DNA from: Candidatus Rokuibacteriota bacterium
GTDB taxonomy: Bacteria > Methylomirabilota > Methylomirabilia > Rokubacteriales > CSP1-6
Assembly: GCA_016866775.1 (NCBI GenBank)
Contig: VGLJ01000055.1
Coordinates: 1-33,102, forward strand
DNA length: 33,102 nucleotides
Reading direction: 5' to 3'
The translations under genes were made by a program, and so were the position numbers. The notes below the pieces were generated by a model that was not told where the DNA came from, made no database searches, and saw nothing but the letters and a program-made list of their open reading frames with translations. Below are positions 2 to 25,796 of the stretch, in pieces (within the stretch, counting starts at the first letter, position 1; each line of letters begins with the position of its first letter).

Positions 2-355
2 CCGGACGGACCGCGAGGGCCACGCCAGCGCGTACAGCCCGGGCTGGCAGCGCTCGCGGCGCTGACCGGCGCGCCCGTCGTGCCGCTCGCGTTCGCCGCG
101 CGCCCCGCGCGACGACTCCACACGTGGGACGCGTTCCTGATCCCGGCGCCGTTCGCGCGATGCGCGGTCGTGTTCGGCGAGGCGGTCTGCGTCCGCCGCG
201 ACGAGGACCGCGCGGCGGCGACTGAACGGCTGGAGCGCGCGCTCGAGAGCGTGACCACGCGAGCCGATACGGCAGTCGCGGAGGGCGGGGATTCACTCCC
301 GGCCCGCAGCGAGGGGGGCATGGGGGGTGCGTCTCGCACCCCCCATGTGAAATGA
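2..355 (+). CDS. DUF374 lysophospholipid acyltransferase-like protein, C-terminal part (5' end outside window)
   Basis: The open frame runs in from the left edge; I read it from base 2, and the true start lies upstream. The first residues include a PDGPRGP motif, the DUF374 counterpart of the FPEGTR motif of glycerolipid acyltransferases. They are followed by GAPVVPLAFAA and a W-D-x-F-L-I-P-x-P-F block typical of the family. DUF374 proteins are acyl-CoA/ACP-dependent acyltransferases, and from memory the family includes LpxJ-type lipid A late acyltransferases. Because waaA and lpxK follow directly, a late acyl transfer to lipid A at the inner membrane is a reasonable inference. The last ~28 residues do not look like family sequence: they are encoded by a palindromic repeat (271-346). 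The stop overlaps the waaA ATG (ATGA). Family call secure; substrate inferred. Confidence 0.85.
   Translation, partial: PDGPRGPRQRVQPGLAALAALTGAPVVPLAFAARPARRLHTWDAFLIPAPFARCAVVFGEAVCVRRDEDRAAATERLERALESVTTRADTAVAEGGDSLPARSEGGMGGASRTPHVK
271..346 (+). repeat. Two-hairpin G-run palindromic element, copy A
   Basis: It begins GGCAGTCGCGGAGGG. Hairpin 1 spans 283-305 (9-bp stem with one G-G mismatch, loop TTCAC). Hairpin 2 spans 320-346 (12-bp perfect stem, loop TCT). A GGGGGG-CAT-GGGGGG double G-run (312-327) overlaps its left arm. It matches copy B at 66 of 76 positions without gaps. It encodes the C-terminus of the DUF374 protein and ends five bases before the waaA ATG. Confidence 0.85.
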
Positions 356-12062: not shown

Positions 12063-13042
12063 AAGACCGCGTGCTGTCGGGCATGCGTCCGACGGGAAAC
12101 CTGCACCTCGGCAACTACCTCGGCGCGCTCGCGAACTGGGTGCGGATGCAGGACGCCTACGAGTGCTTCTACTTCTCCGCGGACTGGCACGTGCTCACCG
12201 ACCACGCCGAGGACCGCGGCGACGTCCCCGCGCAGACGATCGAGATGTTCGCCGACTGGCTCGGCGCGGGCCTCGATCCGCAGCGCTGCACGCTGTTCGC
12301 GCAGTCGCTCGTGCCCGAGCACGCGGAGCTGCACCTGCTGTTCTCGATGGTGACGCCCGTGGGCTGGCTGGAGCGCGTGCCGACGTACAAGGAGCGGATC
12401 GAGCAGCAGGAGATCGCCTCGCCGTCCTACGGGCTGCTCGGCTATCCGCTCCTCCAGTCGGCCGACATCCTCATCTACAAGGCGAGGTGGGTGCCGGTCG
12501 GCATCGACCAGGTGCCGCACGTCGAGCTCACGCGTGAGGTCGCGCGGCGGTTCAACAACACGTTCGGCCAGGTCTTCCCCGAGCCCGACGCGAAGCTGAC
12601 CGAGATCCCGAAGGTGCCGGGCACCGACGGCCGCAAGATGTCGAAGTCGTACGGCAACGCGATCTATCTCTCCGACACGGCCGGCGACGTGGTGAAGAAG
12701 GTCAAGCCGATGATGACGGACCCGGCGCGCAAGCGCCGTGCGGATCCCGGCAACCCGGACGTCTGCCCCGTGTTCGACCTGCACAAGATCTTCACGACCG
12801 ACGGCGACCGCGAGGCGTGTGCGACCGGCTGCCGCACGGCGGGCATCGGCTGTCTCGATTGCAAGGACGTGCTCCTGAAGCACATGCTCCCCGCGCTCGC
12901 GCCGATCCGCGAGCGCCGCCAGGCGTTCGTCGAGAAGCCCGACCGCATCGTCGACATCATCCATGACGGCTCGCGCCGCGCGCGAGTGGAGGCCCAGCGC
13001 ACGATGGACGAGGTGCGATCGAAAGTGCGGCTCGCGCCGTGA
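12059..13042 (+). CDS. trpS: Tryptophanyl-tRNA synthetase, iron-sulfur cluster type
   Basis: TrpRS charges tRNA-Trp. The class I motifs are clear: TGNLHLGNY (12-20, HIGH-type) and KMSKS (193-197). The 327-residue length is normal. Four cysteines at 236, 258, 265 and 268 form C-x21-C-x6-C-x2-C (with an extra Cys254), almost exactly the [4Fe-4S] motif of Thermotoga maritima TrpRS (C-x22-C-x6-C-x2-C, beginning at the same residue number). A cluster near the anticodon-binding region is therefore likely. The ATG overlaps the preceding GT2 stop and the scpA GTG overlaps its own stop, so it is co-translated between LPS and chromosome-segregation genes. Confidence 0.96.
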   Translation: MKDRVLSGMRPTGNLHLGNYLGALANWVRMQDAYECFYFSADWHVLTDHAEDRGDVPAQTIEMFADWLGAGLDPQRCTLFAQSLVPEHAELHLLFSMVTPVGWLERVPTYKERIEQQEIASPSYGLLGYPLLQSADILIYKARWVPVGIDQVPHVELTREVARRFNNTFGQVFPEPDAKLTEIPKVPGTDGRKMSKSYGNAIYLSDTAGDVVKKVKPMMTDPARKRRADPGNPDVCPVFDLHKIFTTDGDREACATGCRTAGIGCLDCKDVLLKHMLPALAPIRERRQAFVEKPDRIVDIIHDGSRRARVEAQRTMDEVRSKVRLAP

Positions 13043-13890
13043 CGGGCATCACTCCGGCGTCGGATGATCTCACGCTCCGGGTCGGTGACTTCGAAGGCCC
13101 GCTCGACCTCCTCCTGCATCTCTGCCGCACCAACGAGATCGATCTGGCCGCGCTGCCGGTGCGGACGATCACCGACCAGTACCTCGCGCACCTCGAGGCG
13201 GTCGAGTTCCGCGACCTCGAGACCGCGGGCGCCTATCTCGTGATGGCGGCCACGCTCATCTACCTGAAGTCCAAGCTGCTGGTGCCGCCGGACGAGAACG
13301 CGGTCGAGGAGCTCGACGACGACGCGCTCGCGCTCAAGCAGGAGCTGGAAGAGCGGCTGCGCGAGTACGCGCGCGTGAAGGCGCTGGGCGGGCTGCTCGC
13401 CGAGCGCGAGGCCGCGCAGGCGCTCTCGTGGGGCCGGCCGGGCAGCCAGCTGCCGTCGGCGGACGACATCCCGCTCGAAGACCTGAGCGTGCACCTGCTG
13501 GAGCGCTCGCTCGCGCGTCTCATCGAGGAACAGGCACGCCGCAAGCCGCGCGAGATCGAGCCCAACCCACCCTCGGTCCTCGAGCGGATGACCGAGATCC
13601 TCACGCTGCTGCGCGACACGTGGTCGATGCTGTTCTCCACCCTCGCGGGCGGCGAGCGCCGGCGCGCCGACGTGGTGACGACGCTCCTCGCGGTGCTCGA
13701 GCTCGTGCGTCAGGGCCGGATCCGCGCGCAGCAGACGGAGCTCTTCGGAGAAATCGTGCTGGAACGCCAGCAGACGGAGATGTCCTTCCCGATCGAAAAC
13801 CTCGAGACCCTTGGCAGTCGCGGAGGGTCCGGATTCACTCCGGACCCGGAGCGTGGGGGGCTTGGGGGGTCCGTCTCGGACCCCCCATAG
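13039..13890 (+). CDS. scpA: Segregation and condensation protein A
   Basis: ScpA is the kleisin that bridges the SMC heads and recruits ScpB. The N-terminal FEGPLDLLLHLCRTNEIDL and LPVRTITDQYLAHLE, then ETAGAYLVMAATLIYLKSKLLVP, are diagnostic. A C-terminal winged-helix segment (DVVTTLLAVLELVRQGRIRAQQTELFGEI) would bind the SMC cap. GTG start in a GTGA overlap with trpS. The true family sequence ends near EMSFPIEN; the last ~25 residues (LGSRGGSGFTPDPERGGLGG and onward) are encoded by the two-hairpin repeat at 13813-13888, and the stop TAG is made at its end. scpB follows after eight bases. Confidence 0.95.
   Translation: MTGITPASDDLTLRVGDFEGPLDLLLHLCRTNEIDLAALPVRTITDQYLAHLEAVEFRDLETAGAYLVMAATLIYLKSKLLVPPDENAVEELDDDALALKQELEERLREYARVKALGGLLAEREAAQALSWGRPGSQLPSADDIPLEDLSVHLLERSLARLIEEQARRKPREIEPNPPSVLERMTEILTLLRDTWSMLFSTLAGGERRRADVVTTLLAVLELVRQGRIRAQQTELFGEIVLERQQTEMSFPIENLETLGSRGGSGFTPDPERGGLGGSVSDPP
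13813..13888 (+). repeat. Two-hairpin G-run palindromic element, copy B
   Basis: Hairpin 1: GGGTCCGGA (13825-13833), loop TTCAC, TCCGGACCC (13839-13847), nine perfect pairs. Hairpin 2: 13863-13887, eleven pairs, loop TCT, again overlapping a GGGGGG-CTT-GGGGGG double run. It encodes the last 25 residues of ScpA in a different reading frame from copy A. The scpB ribosome binding site begins at its right edge. Confidence 0.88.
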
Positions 13891-23051: not shown

Positions 23052-25796
23052 TCCCGCGCTCACGCCGATGATGACGCAGTACCGCGAGCTCAAGCAGCGG
23101 TATCCCGACTTCATGCTGCTGTTCCGGCTCGGCGACTTCTACGAGCTGTTCCTCGAGGATGCCGAGCGGGGTGCCAGGATCCTGTCGATCACGCTGACCT
23201 CGCGGCAAGGCGCGCCGATGGCGGGCATCCCGCACCACGCGGCGGAGAGCTACATCGCGCGCTTGATCCAGGCGGGGCAGAAGGTCGCGATCTGCGAGCA
23301 GATGGAGGCGCCGGGCAAGGGCAAGAAGCTCCTGCGCCGGCAAGTGGTTCGCGTGGTCACGCCGGGCACGGTGACCGACACCGCGTACCTCGCGGGCGGC
23401 ACGAACAACTTCCTGCTCGCGGTCGTTCGCGCGCGTGAAGGGACGGGCGTCGCGCTCGTCGACGTCTCGACCGGCGAGTTCTGGGCGGGCGAGGACACGG
23501 CCGCGGACGACGGCGTGCTCGCCGCCGCGCTGCTGCGCCGGCCGTCCGAGATCGTGCTGCCGGAGTCGCTGCGCGAGGCGACCGACCTGCTCGCGCGGCT
23601 CACGGCGACCGGCGCGACGCTGAGCTTCACGGACGCCGCGAGCTTCGGCGGCCGCCGCGCCGGTGCCGAGCTGTGCGCACACTTCGGCGTGAGCAGTCTC
23701 GAGCCGTTCGGCGTCGGCGGGCTCACCGTCGGGCTGCAGGCGGCCGCGGGGGCGCTCGGCTATCTCCGAGCGACCCAGGGCGACGCGCTCGGGCACCTCA
23801 CGCGGCTGCAGCGCCTGCACACCGGTGACGCGCTCGCGCTGGATGCGACGGCGGTGGTGACCCTGGAGCTGATCGAGGCGAGCGCCGGCGGTGCGCGCGG
23901 CTCGCTCTTCGGCGTGCTGGACGAGACCGTGACGCCGATGGGCGCGCGCCTCCTCCGCCAGTGGATGCTGCGGCCGCTCCTCGATCCGGATGCCATCCGC
24001 GCGCGACAGGACGCGATCGCCGCGCTGGTCGAGGCGCCCGCGGTGCGCGACCAGCTTCGCCGCCTCCTCCGCCGCGTCGGCGATCTCGAGCGTCTCACGA
24101 GCCGCGCGATCCTGGGCTTGGCACACGCGCGCGACCTGGTAGGCCTCCGGACGTGCCTTGACCCTCTGGACGACATCCGAAGGGCGTGCGCTGCGCTGAG
24201 CGGTCCCATCGGTAACGCCCCGGGCGGGGCGGTAGCGGGGGCGGCGGATCGGGAGGGCGGGTCGGCGACAACCGCAGGCTCTGCGAGGACAGGAGCCGAT
24301 ACGCCCTCCCGATCCGCCGTCCCCGCCACCGCGCTACTCGAGACGGCACGCGAAGAGATCGCACCGCTGGCCGACGTGCGCGCCCTGCTGAACGACGCCC
24401 TGGAGGACGAGCCGCCGCTGACGCTCCACGACGGCGGCTTGATCCGCGAGGGATGGGACGAGCGCCTCGGCGCGATCGTCACCGAGGCGCGCGAGGCGCG
24501 CGAGTGGATCGCCGGCCTCGAGGAGCGCGAGCGCGCGCGGACCGGCATCGGCAGCCTCCGCGTCCGGTTCAACCGCGTCTTCGGCTACGGCATCGAGGTC
24601 ACGCACGCGCAGGCGGCGCGCGTCCCCGACGACTACGTGCGGCGGCAGACGCTCGCGGGCGCCGAGCGCTACGTGACCACCGAGCTGAAGGAGTACGAAG
24701 CGAAGGTGCTCGGGGCGGACGAGCGCCGCCGCAGGCTCGAGTACGACCTCTTCGACGACGTGCGCCGCCGCGTGGCCGGGCACGCGGTCGCGCTGCTCGC
24801 CACCGCGCGCGCGCTCGCGCGCCTCGACGTGTTCGCGGCGCTCGCGGAGGTCGCCCACGTGCGCGGCCACGTGCGGCCGGTGGTCGATCGCGGCGACGCC
24901 CTGGTCATCACCGAGGGGCGCCATCCCGTACTGGAGGCGCGCGCCGAGGCGCCGGTGACCGCGAACGACCTGGCGCTGGACGACGCCGCGCGGATCGTCA
25001 TCCTCACGGGCCCGAACATGGCCGGCAAGTCCGTCTACCTCCGTCAGACCGGCCACATCGTGCTCATGGCGCAGATGGGCGCCTTCGTCCCCGCGCGCGA
25101 GGCGCGCATCGGCGTGGTCGATCGGCTCTTCACGCGCGTCGGGGCGCAGGACAACCTGAGCCGGGGGCAGTCGACCTTCCTCGTGGAGATGGTGGAGACC
25201 GCGACGATCCTCAACAACGTCACGCCGCGCAGCCTCGTGCTGCTCGACGAGGTCGGCCGGGGCACCTCGACCTTCGACGGGCTCGCGATCGCGTGGGCGG
25301 TGGTGGAGGCGCTCCACGATGCGTGCGGTGGTGGGCCACGCGAGCGGGCGGCGGCAGAGCCGCCGGGAGCCCGCGAGTTCATGGACCGCCCCGGGCCCGC
25401 GAGTCCAAAGGTCCTCTTCGCGACGCACTTCCACGAGCTGACGCAGCTCGCGGATCGGCTCGCCGGCGTCCGTAACTTCCACGTCGCCGTCCGGGAGTGG
25501 AACGACGAGATCATCTTCCTCCACAAGGTCCGCGCCGGATCTACCGATCGGAGCTACGGAATCCAGGTGGCGCGCCTCGCCGGGCTGCCGGCGCCGGTCA
25601 TCGCCCGCGCGAAGGCGCTCCTCGCGGAGCTGGAAGCCACCGGCAACCAGCGCGCCGACGTCGCCGACGCCGAGCAGCTCGGGCTGTTCGTCGCGCCGCG
25701 CGACCCGATCGTGACCGAGCTCGCGCACCTCGACCTCGCGCACGTCACGCCGATCGAGGCGTTGAACCTGCTCGCGAAGTGGCAGGCGCGACAGAC

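Follow-up and report, generated by a model that had tools for sequence, protein, structure and literature searches.

Protein tails read from a REP-like palindromic element at gene 3' ends in a Rokubacteria genome

How can the same stretch of DNA end two proteins in two different reading frames, and is it built to do so? The window analysed here, a stretch of 33,102 nucleotides from the genome of a soil bacterium of the Rokubacteria, holds a pair of 76-bp repeats (271-346 and 13813-13888) that are 87% identical. The first-pass annotation had proposed that both are translated as C-terminal tails in different frames, neither of which meets a stop until the very end; that the peptide is incidental; and that in several frames the element either tolerates stops or avoids them, so that it can reside within genes. 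Here, we describe the repeat throughout the genome, the way in which genes meet it, and the explanations that its structure, location and stop codons allow. The features of the window to which we refer are the following.

2-355, + strand: 3' end of an ORF called DUF374 in the first-pass annotation, truncated by the contig edge, with an element-encoded tail
271-346, + strand: repeat copy 1, the C-terminal tail of ORF 2-355; folds at z = -5.4 (single-stranded DNA)
277-311, + strand: hairpin 1 of copy 1, CGC-GGA-GGGCGGGGA-TTCAC-TCCCGGCCC-GCA-GCG, with a symmetric 3x3 internal loop (covariation and fold)
314-322, + strand: extra G-run and 3-nt spacer of copy 1, here GGGGGG CAT, in the consensus GGGGGG CTT
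322-344, + strand: hairpin 2 of copy 1, GGGGGGTGCG-TCT-CGCACCCCCC, limits good to about 1 nt (fold and covariation)
13039-13890, + strand: scpA, with PF02616 at residues 31-239 and an element-encoded tail from about residue 258
13813-13888, + strand: repeat copy 2, the C-terminal tail of ScpA, in another frame than copy 1, with a TAG stop at the element edge

Both tails were confirmed. The first base of the element falls on codon position 3 in ORF 2-355 and on codon position 1 in scpA, and the two proteins end in VAEGGDSLPARSEGGMGGASRTPHVK (element part AEGGDSLPARSEGGMGGASRTPHVK) and SRGGSGFTPDPERGGLGGSVSDPP (element part GGSGFTPDPERGGLGGSVSDPP), each followed by its stop. Neither frame is interrupted within the repeat, as had been claimed: ORF 2-355 runs to a TGA at 353-355, 7 nt beyond the element, and scpA to a TAG at 13888-13890, the T of which is the final element base. 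The Pfam match makes the identity of ScpA firm, and its closest named relatives belong to Candidatus Rokubacteria/Rokuibacteriota MAGs. Since the Pfam domain ends at residue 239, and since ScpA of two relatives without the element at this site (L106 and L107) is 254 aa long, the 25-residue tail is an addition. ORF 2-355 lies directly upstream of kdtA (PF04413); truncated as it is, it has no Pfam match, and the name DUF374 was not confirmed. In L108 (3600-3870), the scpA-scpB junction holds another G-run/hairpin element with a different hairpin 1, apparently in more than one partial copy.

A search of the window's own genome (G000; 5.13 Mb, 97.5% complete) with a pattern for hairpin 1 returned 109 copies, 57 on the + and 52 on the - strand, and none for the reversed pattern that served as control, so the repeat is not a product of chance. 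A profile HMM applied to the 934 kb surrounding the pattern matches likewise gave 109 copies above a threshold of 27 bits, including a few more diverged than the pattern permits. The consensus is GGCACTCGCGGAGGG(NNN)GGATTCA(C/T)TCC(NNN)CCCGGAGCGT-GGGGGG-CTT-GGGGGG-stem-loop-stem-CCCCCC-ATGTC. Hairpin 1 rises from a base of three pairs through a GGA/GGA internal loop to an upper stem of nine pairs; the outer stem of hairpin 2, which pairs G6 with C6, comes after a run of six Gs and a 3-nt spacer.

Covariation supports both hairpins. In hairpin 1 (106 copies), the two most variable pairs of the stem are 11/25, which is C-G in 76 copies and G-C in 23, and 12/24, which is C-G in 62 and G-C in 37; they are paired in 101 and 99 of the copies, against 63 and 54 when shuffled. 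Two inner pairs of hairpin 2 are paired in 35 and 40 of the 42 copies of standard length, compared with 18 and 25 when shuffled. Both strands of the element fold far more stably than shuffled sequences, whether treated as RNA or as DNA. Mismatches in stem 1 are nearly balanced between G.T (10) and A.C (7) across the 106 copies, which, small as the numbers are, fits a structure on either DNA strand rather than one in the RNA of a single strand.

A few copies depart from the common form. In three of them (L063 4281, L087 5176 and L092 5235) hairpin 1 is joined to a second half of another kind (GGGG-TTT-GGGGTCC...GGGGCCCC), which suggests modular exchange of element halves, and the copy at L100 7556-7650 has part of its 5' end duplicated in front of it, which looks like a rearrangement within the hairpin. 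Two contig ends, L015 55-130 and L026 72-146, have a copy and its flanks in common and differ in the second G-run (GGGGGG and GAGCGG), which is an assembly or strain-variant effect.

To place the copies relative to genes, we relied on a codon-usage gene caller made for this analysis, which called 90% of the sequence as coding and recovered the dense operon structure of the window. By these calls, 54 of the 109 copies are intergenic and the remainder abut or enter a gene. For the first-pass annotation, copies elsewhere that were mostly intergenic and full of stops would have spoken against its reading; only about half of them lie between genes, and the others touch one. Genes run toward the element from both sides, 69 toward its 3' side and 61 toward its 5' side, and their stops cluster within the element or no more than about 15 nt from it, many genes ending just before it. 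The 93 junctions that hold copies divide into 67 co-directional, 24 convergent and 2 divergent, compared with 556, 81 and 95 among the 732 junctions elsewhere (p = 1e-5): divergent junctions are nearly devoid of copies and convergent ones enriched. About 30 copies are themselves translated and about half are non-coding; with several + strand frames and the - strand among those read, the peptide does appear to be largely incidental, as had been suggested.

We consider it likely that the repeat is a REP-like, non-autonomous palindromic element of about 76 bp, recognised as DNA hairpins, that settles at the 3' ends of genes and whose translation is mostly a by-product. The element would be non-autonomous DNA that is or was mobile, its hairpins being recognised by a protein supplied in trans, and it would spread to, or survive at, gene 3' ends, whichever its orientation. 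Insertion at a stop codon or upstream of one would make the gene read into the element: a gene coming from the 5' side would pass through and stop just beyond, and one coming from the 3' side would usually end at the TGA of the hairpin-1 loop. The observed basis is the copy number, the covariation, the location at gene ends, the use of the loop stop, the in-frame copies inside genes and the absence of the transposase domain Y1_Tnp, the last three of which are taken up below; from it we infer past mobility, recognition at the DNA level and neutrality of the tails. The covariation could also stem from quasi-palindrome correction during replication and not from selection of a binding site. As for mobility, target-site duplications gave no signal above chance (k = 3-10, 102 copies), and no exactly matching empty site was found in a close relative, so that movement can only be inferred.

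The location at gene ends would also be expected if the element were under selection to form a structure at mRNA 3' ends, namely a hairpin directly behind the stop codon by which ribosomes are stalled or the transcript is stabilised or terminated, as has been described for Escherichia coli REPs lying up to 15 nt from stop codons. The scarcity of divergent and the enrichment of convergent junctions, the many stops within 15 nt of the element and the very stable folds of both strands agree with such a role, and in E. coli a distance of less than 16 nt between a REP and the stop codon can reduce translation (PMC12306157). We nevertheless regard it as rather unlikely: the element occurs in both orientations, pairs of the G.U type are not favoured over A.C, many copies sit at co-directional junctions, at which termination would have polar effects, and in the roughly 30 translated copies translation would melt the hairpins. 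An intrinsic terminator was rejected, the flank after hairpin 2 reading ATGTC... with no T-run.

The reading as a REP-like mobile element raises the question of how widely the repeat is distributed. A search of 39 relatives, all from other genera, gave no match to the hairpin-1 pattern, which also has no exact match among the contigs of named genomes, a set that may leave out the own genome and those near it. For the second half we used a more permissive pattern, G5 N2-6 G6 N4-24 C6, which counts long runs repeatedly; it gave 209 matches in the own genome and none in the control. Other genera of the family and order are similarly rich (examples with matches/control: 255/1, 140/4, 108/5 and 404/18), unlike the class's outgroup families, in which the pattern is not one-sided. 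The family maximum, 773 matches, was seen in genome G009, with 170 in the control. In four genera that we inspected, the G6-N3-G6 hairpin module is preserved behind differing hairpins 1, and GGGGGGCGCCCGGAGCCCCCC is common to the own genome and genome G011.

That many Rokubacteria genera retain G6-N3-G6...C6 despite differing stems and a differing hairpin 1 could mean that the extra G-run forms a G.G:C triplex or a G-quadruplex with hairpin 2, itself functional or recognised, and the geometry would be compatible with an antiparallel purine triplex. The run lengths make this improbable: the first G-run is not coupled in length to the runs of hairpin 2 (rho = 0.09, p = 0.36), whereas the two arms of hairpin 2 are coupled to each other (rho = 0.52).

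The search for a mobiliser gave no enzyme. Y1_Tnp (PF01797) has no match in the own genome, 97.5% complete as it is, and only a partial one in a single genome of the 15 in the order that are rich in the G6-N3-G6 motif (own included); it is present in several element-poor genomes. Given its absence from nearly all rich genomes, it is unlikely that proteins of the RAYT or IS200 kind mobilise the element. Somewhat short of an even chance, in our estimate, is the broader proposal of an undescribed Rokubacteria superfamily of REP-like elements in many genera of the family, made of a variable hairpin 1 and a G6-N3-G6-stem-loop-C6 module, mobilised by an enzyme other than a RAYT and, in this lineage, delivering a loop stop to adjoining genes.

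The loop stop deserves separate attention. The TTCAC loop of hairpin 1, as in copy 1, contains a TGA on the - strand, and the variants TTTAC and TTTAT still give a stop there (TAA). Genes that enter from the 3' side beyond the edge region end at this stop in 20 cases, nearly all at TGA and one at the TAA variant, and continue past it in 6; the expected ratio is 1:2 (p = 7e-6). Entry from the 5' side is usually stop-free, and eight genes pass through the element to end 4-22 nt beyond it, both window cases included.

The marked use of the loop stop, together with its retention in the variants, would suit selection on the TGA itself as a portable stop that gives invaded genes a clean end. This is a little less probable still than a triplex or quadruplex, for the loop is equally conserved in copies whose stop no gene uses, the loops of other Rokubacteria subfamilies have no stop, and the frame bias may equally reflect losses among insertions that reached deeper into neighbouring genes.

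Whether the element avoids stops, as the first-pass annotation supposed, was put to a count in all six frames over 102 copies (79% G+C), with mono- and dinucleotide shuffles as controls. The + strand, whose consensus has three open frames, carries 0.23 stops per copy, compared with 0.37 in dinucleotide and 0.78 in mononucleotide shuffles; since 77% of copies are stop-free on this strand against 69% of dinucleotide shuffles, its openness is mostly compositional. The - strand is enriched in stops, with 1.06 per copy versus 0.61 in shuffles; 96 of the 102 copies carry one there, leaving 6 stop-free, compared with about 52% of shuffles, and the surplus is nearly constant, being the TGA of the hairpin-1 loop. 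The count bears out no stop avoidance: one strand is open mainly through composition, and the other has a fixed stop.

Some copies do lie inside genes. Pfam matches span an in-frame element in LarC (PF01969), HtpG (PF00183/HATPase), an AMP-binding enzyme (PF00501) and a GcvT-like protein (PF01571), which makes at least four internal in-frame copies. LarC and HtpG of relatives have a short loop and no insert at the same position, the HtpG site being the segment immediately before IGQFGVGFYS, and in the AMP-binding enzyme the element takes the place of a variable linker. The internal copies are thus loop insertions or replacements translated in frame. Most of them are in the same frame, and they are too few for a claim of frame preference. 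The idea that the element was shaped without stops to permit residence inside genes can point to these enzymes, to the few + strand stops and to the three open frames, but it is very unlikely given the compositional expectation, the stop-enriched - strand and truly internal copies that number only a handful.

The window also contains a second, unrelated palindromic element, at 24216-24345, in frame within mutS domain III. It has 51-nt arms and a DNA fold of z = -6.7, encodes a stop-free stretch of about 40 residues (SGPIGNAPGG...SRSAVPA), and has pieces that match 13 further places in the genome.

If REP-like repeats are indeed spread here without a RAYT, there would be a second route for their dissemination, and the many genomes of Rokubacteria in which copies number from tens to hundreds would offer a contrast for finding the enzyme. 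With a stop in the loop and in-frame insertions in enzymes, such repeats would continually generate new protein tails and loops. Repeat-derived tails are to be expected in gene annotation across the phylum.

How does the element compare with known systems? It had no match in Rfam 15 at the gathering score within the window, and our literature search found no publication that links Rokubacteria to REPs. A MITE was rejected, as the 102 copies show no target-site duplication and the element has no terminal inverted repeats. Rickettsia RPE-1, as cited in PMC3733652, is a palindromic repeat translated within unrelated proteins; it is longer and unrelated in sequence, and most copies of our element are instead intergenic or at gene ends. 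The E. coli REPs near stop codons likewise place a hairpin no more than 15 nt from the stop, and are unrelated in sequence.

The nearest parallels are two classes of REPs. CGTC REPs, which include Rickettsia RPE-4 and RPE-6, reportedly have no dedicated transposase and occur in frame in many genes (PMC3733652). The element resembles them in being REP-like, in that no transposase of its own was found and in lying in frame inside genes, but it has no terminal CGTC (by base composition at both ends), another architecture and, at 76 bp, a larger size. Both GTAG and CGTC REPs occupy co-directional and convergent junctions and may lie within ORFs, and the termini of GTAG REPs often supply a TAG stop to flanking ORFs; REPs that supply stops or sit inside ORFs are already published (PMC3733652). 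With GTAG REPs/REPINs and their RAYT, our element has in common a short palindrome in more than 100 copies (109, of which 54 lie between genes and the rest mostly at gene ends), the preference for gene 3' ends, rarity in divergent junctions and an occasional position inside ORFs. It differs in its two hairpins with a G-run and in a stop codon placed in a hairpin loop and not at the terminus; its ends, GGCACTC and CCCCCCATGTC, have no GTAG-type tag, and the genome gave no match to the RAYT domain Y1_Tnp. The element acts like a REP but lacks two features that define the GTAG/RAYT system, the tag and the transposase.
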